This document shows, in pieces, positions 4,867 through 60,364 of a DNA stretch of 64,000 nt. Source of the DNA: Sandaracinus amylolyticus (GTDB lineage Bacteria > Myxococcota_A > Polyangia > Polyangiales > Sandaracinaceae); contig NZ_CP011125.1 in assembly GCF_000737325.1 (NCBI RefSeq), positions 8,742,001 to 8,806,000 of the forward strand. Reading direction: 5' to 3'. A program made the position numbers and the translations under genes. Position 1 is the first letter of the stretch. The number at the start of each line of letters is the position of its first letter. The notes below the pieces were generated by a model that ran no database searches, was not told the DNA's origin, and saw only the letters and a program-made list of their open reading frames with translations.

Positions 4867-5115
4867 GATGCGTCCAGCTCGTGCCTCGATGGGTCGACCC
4901 TTCGGGCGACCAGTCCAGCTCGAATCGCGATGGGTCGGCCCTCCGGGCGACTCAATCCAGCTCGACGTTCGATGGGTCGACTCTTCGGGCGACCCAGTCC
5001 AGCTCGAACCGCGACGGGTCGACCCTTCGGGCGACTCAGTCCAGCTCGACGTGTGATGGGTCGACCCTTCGTTCGCCCCAATCGAGCTCGTTGGTCGGTG
5101 GGTCGAACCATCACG
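4867..5115. repeat. 42-bp tandem repeat array (about six copies)
   Basis: The core GGGTCGACCC (a perfect 10-bp palindrome) or a variant recurs at 4891, 4932, 4974, 5016, 5058 and 5100, giving spacings of 41, 42, 42, 42 and 42 bases. Between cores lie TTCGGGCGAC and CAGTCCAGCTCGA segments. Because 42 is a multiple of three, all frames stay open, which produces long spurious reading frames on both strands. The array fills most of the 435-bp region between two divergent genes (starts at 4788 and 5224). It may be a stretch of binding sites spaced by four helical turns; that is inference. Confidence 0.9.
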
Positions 5116-5223
5116 CTCCGAAATCGACGTCGGTCGCGCAACGGTCGCCCGCTCGGTCCGACGAAGGGCCATCTGCGCGGGGCACCTCGGCCCCGTGCCC
5201 TCCCCTCTCGACCTCGAGGAGAC

Positions 5224-6012
5224 ATGGCCGTGGGCATCCTTCCGAACGACAGTCCGATCTACTTCCACTCGCCCCGCTTCGACGGGCCTTCCGGCGTGCT
5301 GCTGGTGCGGCGCCTCATCAAACACGCGCCCGCCGATCCCTCGCCGCTGCTGCGCCGCGTGCTCCGGCAGATGCGCACCGACGGCGAGGCGCTGCGCGTC
5401 GTCATCCAGGAGCGCGACGCGGCCAGCCCGGCGCGCAGTCGGCCGTTCGGCCTCGCGCACGCACGTGCGTGGAGCGCGCTGCACGCGCGTCTCGACGCCG
5501 GCACCAAGCTCGCGACCGACGTGTATCCGCTCGCGCCGCGCGCGGCGGAGCTGATCGAGTCGATCTTCCCGAACGGGCTCGTGTTCGTCGCGGGCAACTA
5601 CGACACCGCGTTCTTCGAGGGCGAGACGCGTCTCGCGAAGATCGTAGAGCGCGTCGAGCGCGACGTGATCGCGATCGCGGGCGCGCCGTTCCTCGACGGC
5701 GTGCGCATCACCCACGCTGCCCTCGGCGAGGTGCTGGGGCTCGGCCGCTCGACGCCCGAGGTGCCGAGCACGACGGCGGTGCAGGACGCGATCGCGCGCA
5801 CGATGAAGTCGGTCGCGGCCTACAGCCGCGTGCTGGTCGCGGAGCTCGACGAGGACGACGAGGCGTCGGTCGCGCGGTTCCGGCGCGCGGTGGGGCCGCT
5901 CGACGCCTACCGCGCGTCGACGCGTGCGAGCGCCGATCAGCCGCAGGTCGAGCCGACGCCCGGCGACGACGACCCGGACGAGCCGCTGCCGCCGACGCCG
6001 CCGGTCTCGTGA
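5224..6012 (+). CDS. Hypothetical protein with acidic, proline-rich tail
   Basis: A 262-residue protein beginning at an ATG preceded by GAGGAG. No signal peptide or membrane span is seen, so it is probably cytoplasmic. Residues 1-220 look like a mixed alpha/beta fold with a hydrophobic VLLVRRLI stretch near 28 and a helical second half; the last 30 residues are a low-complexity tail rich in Asp, Glu and Pro. I do not recognise a family. It is transcribed away from the 42-bp repeat array, and the following lipoprotein gene starts 77 bp downstream. Codon use matches the neighbours, so I consider it real. Confidence 0.72.
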   Translation: MAVGILPNDSPIYFHSPRFDGPSGVLLVRRLIKHAPADPSPLLRRVLRQMRTDGEALRVVIQERDAASPARSRPFGLAHARAWSALHARLDAGTKLATDVYPLAPRAAELIESIFPNGLVFVAGNYDTAFFEGETRLAKIVERVERDVIAIAGAPFLDGVRITHAALGEVLGLGRSTPEVPSTTAVQDAIARTMKSVAAYSRVLVAELDEDDEASVARFRRAVGPLDAYRASTRASADQPQVEPTPGDDDPDEPLPPTPPVS

Positions 6013-51822: not shown

Positions 51823-52461
51823 TCAGCTCGCGACGGCGCGGATGGTCACGTTCACGCGGATCGTGTTCGCGACCTTGAGGCGCACCGGCGCGCTGATCGA
51901 CACCTGGTGATCGGCGAGCGCGATGTCGAAGCTCGCCTGGGCGCGGATCACGTCGCCGGTGATGCCCTCGGCGCGCAGCTCGTCGTTGAGCGGCACGAGG
52001 CGCACCTGCGCGCTCGCGGTGATGTCGCGGGTCACGCCGTGCAGCGTGAAGCGGCCGCGGATCGTCACGCGCTGCGTCTCGTTCGGGCGCAGCGCCGTCG
52101 CGCCCTCGATGCCGGTGATCTCGAGCGTCGCGTTCGGGAAGCGCTGCGCGTCGAGCCAGTCGCTGCCGCGGAGGTGCTCGTCGCGCAGGTCGAGGCCAGT
52201 GCGCATCTGCGCGATGTCGACGCTCACCGTGCCGCGCGCCGTCGCGAGGTTCGCGGGATCCACGCTGAGCTCACCGGTGACCGCGTTGTTCACGCCGGTG
52301 ATGCGCTCGAGCGGCGCGTCCGAGACCCACTGGATCCGGCTGCCGCCGCCGCGCGTCATGCGGAACGTGCGCGCCTGCGCGGAGGCTTCCGAGGCGACGA
52401 ACGACGTCACCGCCACGAACGCGAGCATCGAGATGAACCAACCGGACGTGCGCAGTCGCAT
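51823..52461 (-). CDS. YceI-family secreted protein
   Basis: A 212-residue protein with a signal peptide (FISMLAFVAVTSFVASEASAQ) and the YceI lipocalin-like barrel: RGGGSRIQWVSDAPLERITG, VSVDIAQMRTGLDLRDEHLRGSDW, RFPNATLEITGI and FTLHGVTRDITASAQV. Family members bind long apolar isoprenoids in the periplasm. A good AAGGAAAG site precedes the ATG at 52461. The gene upstream on the same strand starts 130 bp away; no partner cytochrome b gene is adjacent. Confidence 0.93.
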   Translation of the reverse strand: MRLRTSGWFISMLAFVAVTSFVASEASAQARTFRMTRGGGSRIQWVSDAPLERITGVNNAVTGELSVDPANLATARGTVSVDIAQMRTGLDLRDEHLRGSDWLDAQRFPNATLEITGIEGATALRPNETQRVTIRGRFTLHGVTRDITASAQVRLVPLNDELRAEGITGDVIRAQASFDIALADHQVSISAPVRLKVANTIRVNVTIRAVAS

Positions 52462-52592: not shown

Positions 52593-54059
52593 TTACCGGC
52601 ACCCGTCGGGGTTCGACGCGAGCGGAGCGCCGGGATTCATGATCGCGTCGCGGATCGCCGCACCTGGCGCATCGAGCAGCTCGACACCCGCGACCCCTCG
52701 GCGCACCCCGAGCCAGGCGAGCGTCTCGTCGACGTCGGGGAACTCGTCGCGGTCGATCCAGGGCGCGATCACCTGCGCGAACGGGCCTCCGTCGCCGCCA
52801 TCCATCGCGCGCACGAGCTCGTCGGCGCGCAGCGTCTCGTCGCGGCGGTCGGACGCGCGCACCATGGCGTCGTCGAGCGAGCCCTGCCCGTCCGAGCTGC
52901 GGCGATACGCGACGTCCGCCATGAGCGCGAGCGCGGCGCCGGACCAGTAGACCCGCCCGAAAGCGTATGTACGCAGCATGTCGCGCGACTCCTCGCGGAG
53001 CGTCCGACCGGTGCCCTCGCTGCGCCCGCGCGCGAACCCGTGGAGCATCTCGTTCCACGCTTGCTCGGGCGTCAGCATCCCTTCGCGCGCGCGCAGGACC
53101 TGCTGGTAGTACGTCGCGAGGCCCTCGGTGATCCACGCCTCGTCGCGCTCGACGAACGGGCTCGCGAGGTGCGTGAACTCGTGCACCGCGGTCCAGTCGG
53201 GCACCAGCGCGTCGGGGCGCGCGTTCTCGCCGACGAGCAGCGCGATGGTCGGCAGCGCGCCGCGTCCCACGATCCCGAAGAGCACCGGCGTGTCGGCGAA
53301 CGGCGTCGGCACGACGATCACGCCCGCGCGCTCGGCAGGAAATCGACCGAGCACGCGCGACACCGCGCGCCCCGCGGTGCCGAGCCACGCGCGTCGCTGC
53401 TCCGCGTCGATCTGCAGCGCGCCGTCGAGCACCACCGCGTCGATGCATCCGCCGGGCACCGGCACGCGCTCGACCTCGAGCTCGCCGAACGCGACGTACG
53501 CGATGTAGCGGAACGCGCGCTCGTCGATGCGCATCCACCCTTCTTCGTCGGCGTCGGGCCACACCGTCGACGCGCGCACGCCGTCGGGGAGCACGAACCG
53601 CGCGAGCATCGCCGTCGACGCATCGCGCGGCGAGGGCGCGCGCAGCCAGAGGCTCGTCGGCGCGACCAGATCGTCGCCGACGCGATAGCTCCCGGGCGCG
53701 CCCGGCGTCGCGCGGCGGCCCGGCGCGAGATCGACGCGATACCGCACGCACTCGCCGGGCGCGACGCCGCGCAGCGAGATCTCGCCGTCGATCGGGAGCG
53801 CGTGCGGCCCGTCCGCGCGCAGCACCTCCGCGGTCTCGACGCGCGCGCGTCCTTCCTCGTGGATCGCGGCGAGCGCGTCGGGCACTCCGTCCTCGAAGCA
53901 CACCGTCGTGTGCATGTGCTCGAGGTCGGGCTCGAGCGCGAACGTGTACCGCACGGTGCGCGCGGGCAGCGGCGCTGGAGGGCTCGGCGGCGCGCTCGCG
54001 CCGCACGACGCGAGCACGAGCACGATGCCGAGCGCCGCCGACCTCACACGCGCGAGCAT
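52593..54059 (-). CDS. Lipoprotein with zinc metallopeptidase (gluzincin-like) domain
   Basis: A 488-residue protein with a signal peptide ending LVLASC (lipobox). The central part holds VHEFTHLASPF (HExxH zinc motif near residue 300) followed 18 residues later by EAWITEGLATYY, whose Glu is the third zinc ligand, as in M1-type aminopeptidases. The N-terminal 280 residues are beta-rich and the C-terminus helical. The lack of a clear GxMEN motif leaves the exact peptidase family open. The 41-bp tandem array lies immediately upstream. Confidence 0.85.
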   Translation of the reverse strand: MLARVRSAALGIVLVLASCGASAPPSPPAPLPARTVRYTFALEPDLEHMHTTVCFEDGVPDALAAIHEEGRARVETAEVLRADGPHALPIDGEISLRGVAPGECVRYRVDLAPGRRATPGAPGSYRVGDDLVAPTSLWLRAPSPRDASTAMLARFVLPDGVRASTVWPDADEEGWMRIDERAFRYIAYVAFGELEVERVPVPGGCIDAVVLDGALQIDAEQRRAWLGTAGRAVSRVLGRFPAERAGVIVVPTPFADTPVLFGIVGRGALPTIALLVGENARPDALVPDWTAVHEFTHLASPFVERDEAWITEGLATYYQQVLRAREGMLTPEQAWNEMLHGFARGRSEGTGRTLREESRDMLRTYAFGRVYWSGAALALMADVAYRRSSDGQGSLDDAMVRASDRRDETLRADELVRAMDGGDGGPFAQVIAPWIDRDEFPDVDETLAWLGVRRGVAGVELLDAPGAAIRDAIMNPGAPLASNPDGCR

Positions 54060-54402
54060 AACCCCGCCGCCACGAAGACGACGCGCGTCGCGAGGCCGCG
54101 AGCTCGGGCGCTCGCACGGCGATGTCCGCGCGCGACATGGCTCCGCGACCGCTCGCGCCGCGATGTCCGCGCGCGACATGGCTCCGCGACCGCTCGCGCA
54201 GCGATGTCCGCGCGCGACATGGCTCCGCGACCGCTCGCGCAGCGATGTCCGCGCGCGACATGGCTCCGCGACCGCTCGCGCCGCGATGTCCGCGCGCGAC
54301 ATGGCTCCGCGACCGCTCGCGCAGCAATGTCCGCGCGTGACACGGCGTCTGGCCGTCCGGGAACGGTGTCGTCGTCGGCGCGCTCGCGCCGGTCGCGCGT
54401 GA
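54060..54402. repeat. 41-bp tandem repeat array (six copies at 54121-54350)
   Basis: The unit begins GATGTCCGCGCGCGACAT and occurs at 54121, 54162, 54203, 54244, 54285 and, with changes, 54326, always 41 bases apart. Each unit contains the dyad ATGTC-CGCGCGC-GACAT and the block GCGACCGCTCGCGC. No gene is seen in the whole gap from 54060 to 54402. It lies between two minus-strand genes, upstream of the metallopeptidase gene and downstream of the FGE-domain gene. There are no variable spacers, so it is not a CRISPR array. Confidence 0.92.
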
Positions 54403-55602
54403 TCACTCCGCCGGCAGCGTGCGGACGAGGCGCAGGCCGACGACGTTCTCGCGCATGTCGAAGCGACGCGCGCCGCGGTTCGCGCTGCGACACGCGAAGT
54501 CGCCGAACGCGAACGACCCACCGCGGATGACACGCGTGGTGCGCGTCCCGAAGGGCCCGACCGGATCGACCTGCGCGCCCGCCGGATACTCGTCGTAGCC
54601 GTCCCAGACCCACTCGTAGACGTTGCCCGTCATGTCGTGGAGCCCCCACGGGTTCGCGGGCTTCTGCGCGACGGGGTGGGTCACGCCGGCGCCGTTGCTG
54701 GTGCACCAGCCGATCTCGTCGACGCGCTCGATGTCGTCGCCGATCGGAAAGGCAGTGCGCGATCCCGCGCGCGCGGCGTACTCCCACTCGGCCTCGGTCG
54801 GGAGGCGATATCCCTCGCAGTCGAGCCCGCGGAATTCGGCGCGCGAGCACTGGAAGCTGCCGGGGCACATGCTCCACGTCCCGGGCACTTCGGTGGGATC
54901 GGGGCAGCCCTCGCCGAGCGCGCCGGTGCACGCGAGGTCGTAGCAGCGCGGCAGGCCTTCCGCGTCGCTCATGCGGTTCGCGAGCTCGAGCGCCTCGAAC
55001 CAGCTGATCGACTCGACGGGGCACTCGTCACCGCAGCTGCCGAAGTAGCTCGGTCGTGTGCCGGTGAGGCGCTCCCAGAGGCCCTGCGTGACCTCGGTGC
55101 GCATCACCCAGAACGGCCGCGTGAGGGTCACGACGTGCAGCACCTCGTCGTCCTCGCGGCCGCGCTCGCCGGGCGGCGAGCCCATCGAGTAGGGCTCCGG
55201 CTCGAGCACGACGCCGCCGCAGCCGCACTCGGCGTCGTCGCAGTCGGTCGCGCCGTCGCACTCGTTGTCGACCGCGTCGTCGCAGATCTCGGGAACGCCG
55301 GGCCGCACGTCGGGAGCGGTGTCGTCGCAGTCTCCGCCCTCGGTCACGGCGCCCGCGGGGAGCGAGCACCCTCGCACTGGCTCGGCGCCGAATCCGTCGC
55401 CGTCGACGTCGCGGAAGAACGTCTGGAGCACGCCCTCGTCGACCTCGCCGTCGCAGTCGTCGTCGACGTCGTTGCAGCGCTCGACCTCGCACGCGCCGGC
55501 GTCCTGCCGGGCGAGCGACGCATCGTGCGCGACGACGTCGATCCCGCTGCGCGCACCACACGCAGCGAGGAGCAGGAACATCGGGAGCAGCCGAGCGCTC
55601 AC
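54403..55602 (-). CDS. FGE-sulfatase-domain lipoprotein with D-x-D-x-D-G repeats
   Basis: A 399-residue protein with a lipobox (MFLLLAAC). Residues 35-125 carry calcium-type repeats (CNDVDDDCDGEVDEG, RDVDGDGFG, CDDAVDNECDGATDC). Residues 135-395 are a formylglycine-generating-enzyme (SUMF1-like) domain: FWVMRTEVTQGLWERL, PVESISWFEALELANRMS, YRLPTEAEWEYAARAG, DMTGNVYEWVWDG and TRVIRGGSFAFGDFACRSAN. Only the second of the two active-site cysteines of true FGE is present. Its GTG overlaps the stop of the DUF2063 gene, placing it in the MNIO operon. Probably not a true sulfatase activator. Confidence 0.9.
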   Translation of the reverse strand: MSARLLPMFLLLAACGARSGIDVVAHDASLARQDAGACEVERCNDVDDDCDGEVDEGVLQTFFRDVDGDGFGAEPVRGCSLPAGAVTEGGDCDDTAPDVRPGVPEICDDAVDNECDGATDCDDAECGCGGVVLEPEPYSMGSPPGERGREDDEVLHVVTLTRPFWVMRTEVTQGLWERLTGTRPSYFGSCGDECPVESISWFEALELANRMSDAEGLPRCYDLACTGALGEGCPDPTEVPGTWSMCPGSFQCSRAEFRGLDCEGYRLPTEAEWEYAARAGSRTAFPIGDDIERVDEIGWCTSNGAGVTHPVAQKPANPWGLHDMTGNVYEWVWDGYDEYPAGAQVDPVGPFGTRTTRVIRGGSFAFGDFACRSANRGARRFDMRENVVGLRLVRTLPAE

Positions 55603-56309
55603 GCGCGAGACCCGAGCAGCGCGCCCGCTTCGAGCAGCGCGGTCAGCAGGGCGCTCATCTTCTCGACGAACGCCTGATCCGGCGCGCGCCCTTCGGCGGC
55701 GAGCACCTCGCGCACTCCGTCGATCGCGGGACGATCGCCGCGTGCCCACGCGCGCACCAGCGCGAACGACGTCGCATCGAGCGTGCGCGTCTCGACCACG
55801 TGATCGGGACGTCGATGCACGCAGACGAAGAACGCGCCCGCAGGCGGAGGCTCGACGTCCCGATGCACCGCGTGGCCGAGCGCGAGCACGCGCAACGTGG
55901 GGTGCGCGACCGGGATCTTCTCGAGATCGAGCTCGACGACGTCGCCGTGCACCTCGCCGGCGCGCCACGCGAGCTCCCATCTCGTCGACTCGAGGAGCAG
56001 CACGTCGCGCGCGTGGCCCTCGACGCGCGGAAGCGCGAACGCGACGAGCTCGGGGATCACCTCGCGGAAGAAGCGCGAGCGCGGCGGCGCCTCGGCGAGG
56101 AACGCATCGAAGAGCGCGCTGGTCCGCGCGCGTCCGAGCGCGGCCTCGGTCTTCGGGAGCACCTTCGAGACGAGCTCGCGCAGCCGCGAGCGCACGAGCT
56201 CGCGATAGAGGAGCGCACGCTCGCTCCCCACGAGCGCCAGGTCCTCGCGCGACGGAGCGGCGTCGAAGCACACGCGCTGCATCGCGCGCTGCAGATCGGC
56301 GACCGTCAC
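55599..56309 (-). CDS. DUF2063-type partner protein of the MNIO enzyme
   Basis: A 236-residue protein. The N-terminal helical domain (about 5-95: TVADLQRAMQRVCFD, ELVRSRLRELVSKVLPKT, RSRFFREVIPELVAFALP) matches the DUF2063 domain that accompanies DUF692 enzymes in bufferin/HvfC-type clusters and recruits the precursor peptide. The C-terminal half is alpha/beta without a known motif. The GTG at 56309 overlaps the stop of the MNIO gene, and its own stop overlaps the FGE gene start, so three genes are coupled in a row. Confidence 0.87.
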   Translation of the reverse strand: MTVADLQRAMQRVCFDAAPSREDLALVGSERALLYRELVRSRLRELVSKVLPKTEAALGRARTSALFDAFLAEAPPRSRFFREVIPELVAFALPRVEGHARDVLLLESTRWELAWRAGEVHGDVVELDLEKIPVAHPTLRVLALGHAVHRDVEPPPAGAFFVCVHRRPDHVVETRTLDATSFALVRAWARGDRPAIDGVREVLAAEGRAPDQAFVEKMSALLTALLEAGALLGSRA

Positions 56310-57136
56310 GTGCGTGCTCCGTCCGCGATCGCGCGGAGGCGTCGCAGCTCGTCGAGCAGCACGTCGAGCGAGGGGAAGTTCCCGTCGCGCTCGAGCAGCA
56401 CCGGCACGTCGGGCATGCGCGCGAGCGTGTGCCCGAGCAGCGCATAGACGTCGTCGCAGACGGGCTCGGCGTGGGTGTCGATGATCGGCTGTCCCGTGCG
56501 CACGAGGTGCCCCGCGACGTGGATCTGCACGACGCGATCGGCAGGCACGCGATCGAGGTACGCGCGCGCGTCGAACCCGTGGTTGCGCGCGTTCACGTAG
56601 ACGTTGTTCACGTCGAGCATGAGCCGGCACCCGGAGCGCTCGAGCACCTCGAGCACGAAGTCGATCTCGCGCATCTCCGGCGCGCCGGGGTGCACGTAGT
56701 AGCTGACGTTCTCGATCGCGATGGGCCGCCCGATCGCGTCCTCGACCTGGGCGATGCGCGCGCACGCGACGTCGACCGACTCGCGCACGAAGGGCATCGG
56801 CATGAGGTCGTGCAGCGCGACTCCGTCGACGCCGCCCCAACAGAGGTGATCGCTGTACCAGGGCGCGTCGATCGCATCGAGGAACGCGCGGAGCGTGCGG
56901 AGGTACGCCGGCTCGAAGGGCTCGATCGAGCCGAAGCAGAGCGAGAGCCCGTGGGGCACGACCGGCCAGACCGCGCGGGCGTCGGCGAGGTGTCGCTCGA
57001 AGGTGCCGGCGCGCTCGACGTAGTTCTCGGGGTGGATCTCGACCCACTCGATCTCCGCGGGCCGCCGCGCGAGCATCTCCGCGGCGATCTCCTGCCGCAG
57101 ACCGAGCCCGATCCCTCGTGCTTCCTTCGCTGCCAT
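56306..57136 (-). CDS. MNIO (DUF692) peptide-modifying iron oxidase
   Basis: A 276-residue TIM-barrel enzyme of the multinuclear non-heme iron oxidase family (MbnB, TglH, BufB). Iron ligands are all visible: HPENYV near 46, SDHLCW near 108, AIENVSYYV near 157, LMLDVNNVYVNARNHG near 185, QIHVAGH near 218 and DTHAEPV near 234. Relatives use the irons to rearrange cysteine residues of ribosomal peptides. AGGAG precedes the ATG. It is encoded between the cysteine peptide gene (95 bp upstream) and the DUF2063 partner, the standard arrangement. Confidence 0.94.
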   Translation of the reverse strand: MAAKEARGIGLGLRQEIAAEMLARRPAEIEWVEIHPENYVERAGTFERHLADARAVWPVVPHGLSLCFGSIEPFEPAYLRTLRAFLDAIDAPWYSDHLCWGGVDGVALHDLMPMPFVRESVDVACARIAQVEDAIGRPIAIENVSYYVHPGAPEMREIDFVLEVLERSGCRLMLDVNNVYVNARNHGFDARAYLDRVPADRVVQIHVAGHLVRTGQPIIDTHAEPVCDDVYALLGHTLARMPDVPVLLERDGNFPSLDVLLDELRRLRAIADGART

Positions 57137-57157
57137 CCTGCTCCTGAAACGACGAGA

Positions 57158-57182
57158 GCCGGCGCACGTCTCGTACGCCGGC
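57158..57182 (-). terminator. Hairpin between precursor peptide and MNIO genes (attenuator)
   Basis: GCCGGCG (57158-57164) pairs with CGCCGGC (57176-57182) around an 11-base loop, in the 94-bp gap after the peptide gene. A partial terminator or processing stem here would let the precursor be made in excess over the enzymes, a common layout in peptide clusters. There is no T-run after it. Confidence 0.45.
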
Positions 57183-57230
57183 CCCCTTCGCGATCGCGAC
57201 GCGACGCGCGCCGCGCTCAGCGCGAGGAGA

Positions 57231-57491
57231 TCAGGTCCCCGAGCCCTCGGCCGGCGCCTCGCCGGTCGACTCGCCGGCCGCGCCGCCGCAGCTGCCCGCG
57301 CCGCACGACGCCTGGGTGCCCGTCGCGTCGCCGGTCGACTCGGTCGTCGTCGTCTCGGTCGTGGTCTCGCTGCCCGACGAGGCGGTCTCGCCCGTCGACT
57401 CCGAGCTCTGGGCGCTGCCGCCGCCACACGCGCTCAGGCCGAGCAGGGCCGACGCAGCCACCACGAGCGAGGTCTTCAGCTTGCTGTTCAT
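57231..57491 (-). CDS. Short cysteine peptide, probable MNIO substrate, lipoprotein type
   Basis: An 86-residue peptide. Residues 1-21 form a signal peptide that ends LLGLSAC, a lipobox, so the mature product would be lipid-anchored at Cys22. A long Ser/Thr/Glu/Gly spacer (24-60) leads to ASCGAGSCGG (61-70), two Cys-Gly pairs in the style of the EGKCG/CGxGxCG cores of HvfA/BufA peptides, then a Gly/Glu/Ala tail. It is the first gene of the MNIO operon. Modification is inferred from the neighbours. It was too diverged for a family name. Confidence 0.82.
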   Translation of the reverse strand: MNSKLKTSLVVAASALLGLSACGGGSAQSSESTGETASSGSETTTETTTTESTGDATGTQASCGAGSCGGAAGESTGEAPAEGSGT

Positions 57492-57956
57492 GGTCTCAGA
57501 TCTCCCGGTTCCATTGGGGTTCGAGCCGCACTCGGGGCCTTGCAGGGCCCGGCTCCCGGTCCGGTGGCCGAAGACTAAGCCGAAATACACGCCGGCTGAC
57601 AAGAGCCTGCGAGCACGTTCCGGCCGAGCGGCCGTTTCCGCCTGGAACGTTCGTATCCAGCGTGAATCGCTCCGAGCCCCGCGCGCCGCGCAGCTCGCCG
57701 CGCCTCGCGACCCCGGCAATGCGCCTGGGCGCGCGAAACGCCGACCCGAGCGCGAGACGGTCTCTCGCGACGGCCCTCGCCGGACGTCTCGCGAAAGCCC
57801 ACCGAGCAAGAGGCGCCCGGCCGACGTCTCGCGAAAAGCCTACCGAGGAAGAGCCGCCGGCGCGACGTCTCGCGTCACCGTCGCGGCGGGCGTCAAGCGG
57901 CCACCGAGCAAGAGCAAGCGGGGCTGGGGCCCCGCGCGCAGCGTTTGGGGTGGGGG
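57492..57956. repeat. Gene-free region with 40-41-bp repeats upstream of the MNIO operon
   Basis: No gene is seen. The word GACGTCTCGCG occurs at 57783, 57823 and 57864 (spacings 40 and 41), followed each time by an accompanying ACCGAG-AAGAG block (57801, 57842, 57903). The third unit is imperfect. The array lies about 290 bp upstream of the start of the precursor peptide and could hold binding sites. The region next to the start (57492-57600) shows no clear promoter words. Confidence 0.7.
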
Positions 57957-58013: not shown

Positions 58014-59726
58014 TCAGCGCAGCTCGGGCGGGAGCAGCAGGAGGAAACGGCCCTCCGCGTCGCTCGTCGCGCGCCCGATCGGCACCGCGCGCTCACCGAC
58101 GATGGCGTACGCCGTGATCTCGGCGCCCGCGATCAGCGCCCCGTCGTCGAAGCTCGCCTGTCCGCGGACCGCGATCGGGTGCCCGACGTCGAGCACCTCG
58201 GTCCACTCGCGCGCGGCCATCGCGAACGCGGGACGCACCACCCACGGCCATCCGCTGCCCTCGGCCGGCTCCGCGATCAGGTCGTAGACGCCCACGTCGA
58301 GGAGCAGTCGGAAGTTGCCGAGCGGGTCGGTGATCGTCTCGTTCGGCCGGTTCAGCAGCGATGCCTCGTCGAGCCGCGGGCCGGGCAGCGGTGCGTTCAG
58401 CGGGACCGCGCGGACGCGCGCGTCGAACACCGGCTCGCCGGCCGAGCGCTGCAGGATGCCGCTCAGCCGCGCGCGCTCCGGGAGCACGAACACGGGGCCC
58501 ACGGTGTCGTCGGTGATCCGACGGTGCTCGACGTAGACGCCGAGCTCCGGCTCGAGAGGACGGATCTCGATGTCGTACTCGCCGGGAAGGACGCGCGCCT
58601 CGAACCCGCCGGGCGGCAATGGTGCGAGCGAGCACCCGATCGGCGTGCCGGCCGCCGCGCCCGCCGACGTCGTCAGCTGCAGCGCGAACGTGCCCGTGAG
58701 CCCGGTGCCGTCGTCCTCGAGCTGGCGCGAGCGCAGCGTGATCGTCGCACCGACCGCCGCGCCCCCGGCGGGCATCTCGACCGTCCCGGCGAAGCACGCG
58801 CCGGTCTGATCGGGCGTCGGCACGAGCACCCGCACGCGCGGATCGTCGGTCGGCCCTTCGTAGACGAGCACCGCGGGATCGACCGTGATCGTCGGGAACG
58901 CCGCGGCTGCCTGATAGGCGGGCGGCGCCGAGACCACGAGACGCCAGTTGGTCGCGGCCGGATCGACGAAGAGCTCGAAGACGCCTTCGTCCTCGCCCAT
59001 CGTCGACGTCGTCGCGACCGATGACACGAGGCGCCCGGTCTCGTCGATCGCGCGCACCTCGAGCCCGTCGTGCCCGGTGCCCACGAGATCGACCAGCGTG
59101 CCCGCGAGCCGGAAGTGCTCCTCGTTCGGGCGCAGCGTCACGTCGTAGCGCTGCCCGCCCATCAGCTCGAGCACCGCGCGCGTCGGCGCGAGGCGGCGCG
59201 CGTCCTCGCCGCGCGGCCGGACCTCCACGTCGTAGACGAGGCCGGGCACGAGCTGCGTCGCGAACTCGTGAGCGCGCATCGGCTCCATGCCCGCGGTCTC
59301 GACACCGGGCGTGCTGACCGACAGCCGCGGCGCGACCGGCACGAGGACGCTGGTGCGCGGCGCGAACACGACGTCGGCTTCGACCGGGCGCGTCCCGCCC
59401 TCGCGCACCCAGCCGGTCACCGGCACCGGCGCGCGCACCGCGATCTGGATGCTCGCGTCGACGCCGCTCGCCGCGAACGAGCCGCTCGACGTGACGAGCG
59501 CGGGACGCCCTTCGTCGATCGACGCGGGCAGCACCATCTGCACGTTGAACGCGTACGGCGCGGCCGTCTCCGCGACGCAGATCCCCATCTCGCGATCGCA
59601 GCGCGATCCACCGCAGTCCGCGTCCTCGCCGCACGCGTTCATGGGCGGGGTGCGCGGCGGATCGATCGTCAGCGTGCACCCCGAGAGCGCACCGGCGACG
59701 AGCAGGGCGAGGCTCGCGCGGGTCAC
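58014..59726 (-). CDS. Large lipoprotein with carboxypeptidase-regulatory-like repeats
   Basis: A 570-residue protein starting at the GTG at 59726, with signal peptide ALLVAGALSGC (lipobox) and an EGF-like Cys cluster (CGEDADCGGSRCDREMGIC) at about 32-50. The rest is a row of beta-sandwich segments, several of the type G-x-V-x-L-x-G-T-V-x-x-D (LAGTLVDLVGTGHDGLEV, LSGILQRSAGEPVFDARV, VRGQASFDDGALIAGAEI), which resemble carboxypeptidase-regulatory-like (CarboxypepD_reg) folds. Probably a surface adhesion or sugar-binding protein. Its start overlaps the upstream stop by four bases. Confidence 0.82.
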   Translation of the reverse strand: MTRASLALLVAGALSGCTLTIDPPRTPPMNACGEDADCGGSRCDREMGICVAETAAPYAFNVQMVLPASIDEGRPALVTSSGSFAASGVDASIQIAVRAPVPVTGWVREGGTRPVEADVVFAPRTSVLVPVAPRLSVSTPGVETAGMEPMRAHEFATQLVPGLVYDVEVRPRGEDARRLAPTRAVLELMGGQRYDVTLRPNEEHFRLAGTLVDLVGTGHDGLEVRAIDETGRLVSSVATTSTMGEDEGVFELFVDPAATNWRLVVSAPPAYQAAAAFPTITVDPAVLVYEGPTDDPRVRVLVPTPDQTGACFAGTVEMPAGGAAVGATITLRSRQLEDDGTGLTGTFALQLTTSAGAAAGTPIGCSLAPLPPGGFEARVLPGEYDIEIRPLEPELGVYVEHRRITDDTVGPVFVLPERARLSGILQRSAGEPVFDARVRAVPLNAPLPGPRLDEASLLNRPNETITDPLGNFRLLLDVGVYDLIAEPAEGSGWPWVVRPAFAMAAREWTEVLDVGHPIAVRGQASFDDGALIAGAEITAYAIVGERAVPIGRATSDAEGRFLLLLPPELR

Positions 59727-60364
59727 AGCTGGCACCCCCTCGCGTCGACGCCGTTCATTCCGTCGGTGTCCGAGATGACCCACCACGTCGCGGTCGCGAC
59801 GTCTCCTTGGGTCTGCGGCGCGCGGCCGATCGGGCCGGCGAACGCGCTCGACACCACGACCTCGATGCGGTGGCAGCCCTCGGGCTCGAGGAACGATCGC
59901 GGCACGAAGATCTCCACCTCGCGGAGCACGCTCGGCGGGTTCGGCGGGATCGGCGCGCTCCCGGTGAGCATCGGGGTGTCGGAGTCGAAGTCGATGTAGA
60001 CGCGGTACTCGAGGCGCTGCGCGACGTTGGGGTCGCGCACGTCGAGCTCGAGCGGCAGCCGCTCCAGCGTCGTGACCCCGCCGTCGGCGTCGACCTCGAG
60101 CTCGCTCGGGAACTGGATCAGGCTGTTCAGCGGGAACAGCGCGGTGTCCGCCGACTCGATCGAGGGCGGGTAGTTCTGCGGGACGTCGTACTGCACGTTC
60201 TGCGTCAGGCAGCCCGGGAGCGTCACCATCAGCGCACCGGCCGCGATCATTCCTGCGCCCGCGAATGCAGCGCGGGTGCCACGCGATGCGCGAGCCACGG
60301 TGCGCGCGGATCGCGCGGCAATTCGCGCGATCCGGTCGAACGCTGCCCGAGCCGCCCGCGACAT
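59723..60364 (-). CDS. Lipoprotein, unknown function
   Basis: A 213-residue protein from the ATG at 60364. An Arg/Ala-rich N-terminus of about 35 residues precedes a hydrophobic stretch ending VTLPGC, a lipobox; the long basic lead is unusual and an internal start is possible. The mature part is beta-rich (about 60-200: QYDVPQNYPPSIESAD, LEYRVYIDFDSDTPML, CHRIEVVVSSAFAG), with a Cys pair. It is translationally coupled to the large lipoprotein downstream, and both probably work together at the surface. The family is not recognised. Confidence 0.78.
   Translation of the reverse strand: MSRAARAAFDRIARIAARSARTVARASRGTRAAFAGAGMIAAGALMVTLPGCLTQNVQYDVPQNYPPSIESADTALFPLNSLIQFPSELEVDADGGVTTLERLPLELDVRDPNVAQRLEYRVYIDFDSDTPMLTGSAPIPPNPPSVLREVEIFVPRSFLEPEGCHRIEVVVSSAFAGPIGRAPQTQGDVATATWWVISDTDGMNGVDARGCQL

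Follow-up and report, generated by a model that had tools for sequence, protein, structure and literature searches.

Most work on peptides modified by multinuclear non-haem iron-dependent oxidases (MNIOs) has dealt with Pseudomonadota and with soluble copper chelators of the Lys-Cys type. Here we analyzed an MNIO locus on the minus strand of the Sandaracinus amylolyticus genome (a single contig of 10,327,335 bases). The window, meaning the whole stretch of DNA that was analyzed, spans 64,000 nucleotides (positions 8,742,001 to 8,806,000 of NZ_CP011125.1), and all coordinates below are positions within it. The locus is probably a cluster for a ribosomally synthesized and post-translationally modified peptide (RiPP) of the captophorin/oxazolin type, in a lipid-anchored serine form characteristic of myxobacteria, with a gene for a lipoprotein that carries a formylglycine-generating enzyme (FGE)-like domain as a lineage-specific insertion.

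Several described systems resemble this locus. The captophorins and oxazolins (FonABC, HvfABC and NgoABC; PMC13097082, PMC13419390) share with it an MNIO, a partner that combines DUF2063 with a RiPP recognition element (RRE), a Sec-type precursor and CGxGxC spacing. In FonA the double repeat EAKCGEGKCG is the minimal substrate, with two repeats being modified and a single one not, and position 3 of the repeat (Lys) tolerates Ala, Arg and Thr (PMC13097082). Lipid-anchored MNIO products have been termed DAG-RiPPs (PMC12636315); these include NedA, which is lipidated and loses 4 Da per motif, and the CxxxxC lipoproteins of 'cluster X'. A CxxxxC precursor family with a signal peptide and with MNIO and DUF2063 genes has also been reported, with Lactamase_B_2 in 54% of its clusters (PMC12452194). 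The same paper describes the bufferins Buf1 and Buf2, which have the gene order precursor-MNIO-DUF2063 and in which an FGE-sulfatase domain is tied to an MNIO substrate through Buf1|cytochrome c|FGE fusions; approximately 16% of Buf2 proteins carry lipoprotein signals.

Analysis of the window confirmed all four minus-strand genes listed between 57491 and 54403 in a first-pass annotation made from the sequence alone, and the last three are linked by 4-base overlaps (GTGA at both the MNIO/DUF2063 and the DUF2063/FGE junction). The first gene (57231..57491) encodes a precursor of 86 residues with a lipobox (LSAC, Cys22), a low-complexity linker of Ser, Thr, Glu and Gly, and the core QASCGAGSCGG (residues 60-70; 57282..57314, minus strand). 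The lipoprotein-type peptide and its ASCGAGSCGG motif were as annotated, as was Cys68; the other core cysteine, numbered Cys62, is Cys63. A signal peptide and two 5-residue Cys-Gly units (QASCG and AGSCG) directly precede the genes for the MNIO and its partner. After a gap of 94 bp follows the MNIO gene (56306..57136), whose 276-residue product belongs to the DUF692/MbnB_TglH_ChrH family (PF05114, 6e-97, 324.4 bits against a cut-off of 25). Residues H62, H97, E142, D175, H206, D220, H222 and E249, which we take to be the iron ligands, are among those invariant in 20/20 homologues, and the nearest solved structure by sequence is 3bww. Comparison with the NCBIfam models gave near-equal scores for HvfB (292.3 bits, cut-off 360) and BufB (291.1 bits, cut-off 310), both below the cut-off, and both models were matched by all 20 homologues. 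The third gene (55599..56309) begins with a GTG codon that overlaps the MNIO stop and encodes a 236-residue protein with a DUF2063 domain (PF09836, 35.6 bits, cut-off 27.2) and an NGO1945 C-terminal domain (PF22106, 28.5 bits, cut-off 27), the composition of a PME type 1 partner; it scored 61 bits with the HvfC model (cut-off 142). The fourth gene (54403..55602) encodes the 399-residue FGE-like lipoprotein, with two MopE-type metal-binding repeats. The cluster is not a chance arrangement, since the peptide, MNIO and DUF2063 genes are syntenic throughout the order, and family models, lipobox and synteny together support a RiPP cluster of the MNIO/DUF2063 type whose Cys-Gly precursor would be anchored by a lipid, as the first-pass annotation had it.

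Two other arrangements of these enzymes were seen elsewhere. In L066 (6506-8365, plus strand; also G041:C3) the MNIO and DUF2063 domains lie in a single stop-free frame of about 620 residues, a natural fusion that resembles the engineered HvfBC fusion of PMC13419390. L184 holds two MNIO-DUF2063 pairs in facing orientation within 4 kb.

The precursor was then compared across MNIO loci. The survey comprised 151 distinct loci (96 from Myxococcota by record title or GTDB phylum, 52 from other phyla, and three loci counted as unassigned and placed by us with Myxococcota for the MNIO tree); nine duplicate loci were dropped ahead of counting, among them L040, which shares the MNIO stretch of L039. 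Gene starts were set by a simple caller based on codon scores. A peptide of this type is also encoded just before the MNIO in relatives, with an MNxxLK-type start, a lipobox Cys, a low-complexity linker and a C-terminal SCGxGSCG; cores of the form EASCGEGSCG are present among them. The lipobox Cys is invariant in 40/40 aligned myxobacterial precursors and conservation reaches at least 90% at C63, G64, G66 and C68, while S62, C63, S67 and C68 are invariant across 23 close precursors. Compared with G002, a genome of the same genus whose MNIO is 95% identical, the precursor is the most conserved gene (2 synonymous and 0 nonsynonymous differences over 85 aligned codons). Precursors were counted at loci with a motif-found, ATG-started candidate (62/96 in Myxococcota, 22/52 in other phyla). 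A lipobox, called by motif in a search whose ranking favoured lipobox starts equally in both groups, was present on 58 of the 62 recognised precursors in Myxococcota versus 2 of the 22 in other phyla. The residue ahead of the second Cys of the motif is Ser at 41 of 63 sites in Myxococcota (Lys at 3), versus Lys at 57 of 62 sites in other phyla; the window core has Ser at both of its sites. The NCBIfam HvfA model matched 4/40 myxobacterial precursors (best 4.6e-7). No Pfam match to DUF2282 was found for the window precursor at E 1, nor for any of the 40 precursors at E 0.01. Further precursor copies in the genome were rejected: the motif pattern occurred at two other places, and at two in the reversed control. 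As side observations, L056 carries two tandem precursor genes (83 and 92 residues, at approximately 5100-5800) ahead of one MNIO, and L200, L195, L199 and L202 have unusual repeat precursors, for example with many GGCPTTTD units or CKGxNxCKGxGGC repeats.

These data place the window cluster close to the captophorins. The core corresponds unit for unit to the FonA repeat (QASCG-AGSCG against EAKCG-EGKCG; PMC13097082), in a form with Ser for Lys, and because of this match, the Ser/lipobox pattern, the HvfA matches of some relatives and the HvfB/BufB scores we assigned it as a captophorin-like cluster in a Ser variant. Strict membership of the Lys-Cys oxazolins fails, since Lys is absent at both sites and the scores fall below the model cut-offs (HvfB and HvfC as above, no match for HvfA). 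The myxobacterial form departs from the described captophorins and oxazolins (PMC13097082, PMC13419390) in several ways: the residue before the modified Cys is Ser or Thr instead of Lys, the signal peptide carries a lipobox and is not of the ordinary kind, most precursors have few repeats, M61-like, YceI and kinase-FGE genes occur as accessories, and DoxX was seen in at most one of the 75 neighbour proteins scanned (from 83 genes; first 25 of 72 families listed). With the DAG-RiPPs (PMC12636315) it shares an MNIO cluster and a lipoprotein signal with a lipobox Cys, here by motif, and CGAGSC fits CxxxxC; NedA differs in its EGKCG repeats, and the window family may be the same as 'cluster X' of that paper. 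The CxxxxC precursors of PMC12452194 agree in signal peptide, CxxxxC motif and both enzyme genes and differ in their frequent Lactamase_B_2, which among the same neighbours and listed families was found at most once in 75. In contrast to the bufferins of that paper, the window cluster has neither DUF2282 nor a six-Cys domain, and its FGE domain is on a separate lipoprotein. Because MNIO peptides with a lipid anchor, CxxxxC lipoproteins and fusions of bufferins to FGE have already been published (PMC12636315, PMC12452194), the cluster is a variant rather than a new system. For the Ser form as a phylum-wide rule and for the M61-like, YceI and kinase-FGE partners, no description was found in the literature searched, as far as it was read; searches for FGE with threonine kinases in myxobacteria and for DUF692 with YceI likewise retrieved nothing.

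The FGE-like lipoprotein had been taken as the fourth member of the variant system, and its domain as another cysteine-acting fold. The protein has the FGE-sulfatase fold by family model (PF03781, 136.9 bits, cut-off 23.3, E 1.2e-39), together with two PF11617 stretches. In G002, the M61-like gene begins approximately 40 bp after the DUF2063 stop with no FGE gene between them and the YceI gene next, and the best match to the FGE lipoprotein in the whole G002 genome spans only the Ca-type repeats. Other members of the family and of the order that carry M61 downstream of the MNIO likewise lack the gene at that locus. Its closest homologues elsewhere are 43-53% identical (G017, G053 and G003) and lie on contigs other than the MNIO contigs. 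A conserved fourth gene was therefore rejected; absence of the gene beside homologous clusters of relatives is the outcome that the first-pass annotation had itself named as refuting. By parsimony, with this absence from the congener and from family and order relatives, the FGE gene would have been inserted in this lineage, between the DUF2063 and M61 genes. A mobile element was considered as the cause and rejected. The spacer of 343 bp between the FGE and M61-like genes holds a 41-bp tandem repeat (5.8 copies, 54109..54346, no strand assigned), and the repeat is purely local: its core has no other genomic occurrence at up to 3 mismatches, and all 5 exact pattern matches lie at 54109-54346. 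This, with an FGE gene composition equal to that of its neighbours, gives no sign of recent foreign origin. The repeat is missing from the corresponding G002 junction, and ATGTC...GACAT half-sites were noted within it.

Alignment with the true FGEs 2q17 and 6muj revealed that their RGGSYLCHDSYC corresponds to RGGSFAFGDFAC in the window protein. The cysteine pair of the RGGSxxCxxxxC pattern, which we take to bind copper, is therefore incomplete, the first Cys being Phe. Loss of this residue suggests that the lipoprotein is probably an FGE-fold binding protein and not a formylglycine-generating enzyme, and makes cysteine oxidation by it unlikely, which weakens the cysteine-acting role first proposed. 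Formylglycine-generating enzymes target the motif CxPxR, and no such motif is present in the 86-residue peptide; a role as a formylglycine-type enzyme was rejected on both counts.

FGE domains did recur at related clusters. With 'near' defined as -3.8 to +4.8 kb around the MNIO, they were found near it in 17 of 96 Myxococcota loci and in none of the 52 from other phyla, and 17 lay in 780 kb of near sequence versus 1 in 515 kb of outer flank (loci not labelled 'other'), counts that, like those for kinase, M61 and YceI, rest on models built iteratively on the counted loci and so lean toward copies near MNIO. Kinase matches numbered 22 near versus 8 farther out. Most of the recurring domains belong to transmembrane Ser/Thr kinase-FGE fusions (12/96 Myxococcota loci, plus two less complete cases, L057 being cut off and L070 divergent), which are co-directional with the cluster and lie directly after DUF2063 in nine loci, including Polyangium, and directly before the precursor in three. 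PF00069 and a C-terminal PF03781 were present in 4/4 scanned, a hydrophobic stretch between the two domains was read by eye, and both copper cysteines are missing in all 11 kinase-FGE-type proteins read. The first-pass idea of an FGE variant is thus half right: FGE domains recur at these clusters in kinase-FGE fusions, and the window lipoprotein is not conserved.

An alternative reading gives these proteins a function: FGE-fold proteins would be working parts of the system that bind or sense, in the periplasm, either the modified peptide or its metal, whether as a kinase ectodomain or as a separate lipoprotein. The near-versus-far counts, the adjacency and orientation of the 12 kinase-FGE loci and the published Buf1 fusions (PMC12452194) all favour this. 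The independent model PF03781, run on 11 linked genomes, found these domains again; about 0.6 FGE domains would be expected by chance in 11 stretches of 8.6 kb and 11 were observed, in genomes chosen for having one. Without such choice, families f7 and f12 contribute 18 genomes with an MNIO locus of this kind, and in 12 of them a kinase-FGE gene lay within this distance (by hand); the FGE label changed four times on the MNIO tree, a quick tree without bootstrap in which 41 of 114 inner branches are open. However, each of the 11 linked genomes holds 30 to 66 FGE domains, the loci that were counted had also served to train the FGE and kinase models, and the kinase-FGE clusters are related by descent; the window FGE is moreover of another protein type than the kinases and is missing in the sister species. 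We therefore regard a working role for FGE-fold proteins as a tentative possibility, and an insertion into a captophorin-like cluster as the probable reading for the window.

The conserved neighbours of the window-type MNIO are an M61-type protease lipoprotein and a YceI protein. Both genes lie downstream on the same strand and were missing from the first-pass gene list. The operon probably extends past the FGE gene into them, with the YceI gene the likely final gene of the transcription unit. The M61-like gene (52593..54059, minus strand) encodes a gluzincin metallopeptidase lipoprotein of the M61/M1 type (HEFTH...E; PF05299, 22.5 bits, cut-off 22). It was found near the MNIO in 34/96 Myxococcota loci, 0/52 loci from other phyla and 1/3 unassigned loci, with 37 matches in the near sequence versus 0 farther out. 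When the M61-like protein of the window was searched against whole genomes, 33 of 56 relatives had a match; in 18 of these 33 it lay no more than about 5 kb from the MNIO (compared by hand), and two of the 33, G031 and G054, have no MNIO match. The lipobox Cys, the HExxH motif and the third-ligand Glu are invariant in 26/26 sequences. A structure model built from 13 sequences (mean pLDDT 85.8) resembled 4fgm (Z 27.4, rmsd 3.6, 419 residues aligned) and the M61 peptidase 8j9c (Z 24.0), in a re-comparison limited to Foldseek's own top chains, and the Foldseek list consisted of M1 peptidases throughout after two M61-type matches. The HExxH motif and the third-ligand Glu would therefore sit in a fold of the M1/M61 type; the protein differs from the solved enzymes in its short lipoprotein form and 14% identity, and most of its homologues have no Pfam match. 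The M1-type lanthipeptide protease EryP, also among the matches, offers a precedent for this fold in RiPP maturation and nothing beyond that.

The YceI-like gene (51823..52428, minus strand) encodes a lipocalin-fold protein (PF04264, 9.6e-27), and YceI homologues were found near the MNIO in 26/151 loci, with no copy farther out in the flanks. Outside Myxococcota, a YceI gene was observed right after DUF2063 in L091, L092, L093 and L153 (three of Melainabacteria/Vampirovibrio type and one Geothrix). In the gene calls, the DUF2063 stop coincides with the start of an M61 gene in L032, L033 and L047, of a kinase-FGE gene in L124, of a YceI gene in L058 and, in the window, of the FGE lipoprotein gene: a small set of envelope proteins shares the slot after DUF2063.

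Several observations weigh against a captophorin-like Ser form with an inserted FGE gene. Ser at position 3 is not among the substitutions reported for FonA in the passages of PMC13097082 that were consulted, the window precursor matches none of the RiPP and HvfA models, and the MNIO and its partner score below the curated HvfB, BufB and HvfC cut-offs. The M61 linkage is patchy (34/96 loci, 15 changes on the MNIO tree). The FGE gene shares the GC and GC3 content of its neighbours and starts in frame with the operon in a 4-base overlap with DUF2063, so that it has the look of an established member of the operon, and the recurrence of the FGE fold at related clusters speaks for a functional link. 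The missing precursor-model match and the low-complexity linker would also suit an ordinary small lipoprotein that is no longer, or never was, modified, with the MNIO acting elsewhere; however, the gene order and the CGxGSC motif are conserved through the order, the peptide is the most conserved gene relative to G002 and the motif pattern is no more frequent elsewhere in the genome than in the reversed control, which makes this explanation improbable. A role for the FGE lipoprotein as a second enzyme that modifies a cysteine of the peptide, which its direct adjacency, translational coupling and PF03781 match might suggest, is highly improbable given the Phe at the first copper position, the lack of CxPxR, an action that would fall outside the cytosol on a peptide already modified, the relatives that have the same peptide and no FGE gene, and the loss of both cysteines in 11/11 kinase-FGE-type proteins.

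For the captophorin-like cluster we infer the following route from gene content and motifs. The MNIO, held by the DUF2063/RRE partner, would oxidise Cys63 and Cys68 to 5-thiooxazoles in the cytosol, with a predicted loss of 4 Da per core Cys. The precursor would then be exported by Sec, lipidated on Cys22 and cleaved by the lipoprotein pathway, and the product may be a metal-chelating lipopeptide, most likely for Cu(I), held on the envelope by its flexible linker. The M61-like and YceI proteins would be conserved partners, probably in peptide trimming or handling or in envelope stress, with the M61 protein a candidate for proteolytic release or trimming and the kinase-FGE proteins for sensing. 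In a broader and more doubtful proposal, the lipid-anchored Cys-heterocycle peptide of Myxococcota would serve a sensing circuit in the envelope, either as its ligand or by donating metal to it. FGE-fold ectodomains without copper cysteines, borne by transmembrane Ser/Thr kinases or forming free lipoproteins, would detect the peptide or the metal that it carries, the M61 lipoprotein would trim or release the peptide, and the window FGE would be an independent recent recruitment of this fold to the same task. A whole phylum appears to rely on a Ser-Cys peptide with a lipid anchor, and on a recurring set of partners made up of a protease, a YceI protein and receptor kinases. If this is correct, it would allow substrate rules (Ser in place of Lys, a requirement for exactly two units) and envelope-bound metallophores to be put to the test, and it may offer a first signalling route for an MNIO-type peptide. 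The FGE idea as first stated is chiefly corrected by these results: the gene lacks conservation, and its product has lost part of the FGE active site.

Upstream of the precursor gene lies a lipoprotein gene with carboxypeptidase-regulatory-like domains (58014..59786, minus strand, exact start uncertain), whose synteny is confined to the family. A separate and unrelated 41-bp repeat (2.3 copies) is found at 57783-57874, also upstream of the precursor gene. In two genomes of the same family (L038 and L042), the position upstream of the precursor is filled by a lipoprotein with CxxCH haem motifs.

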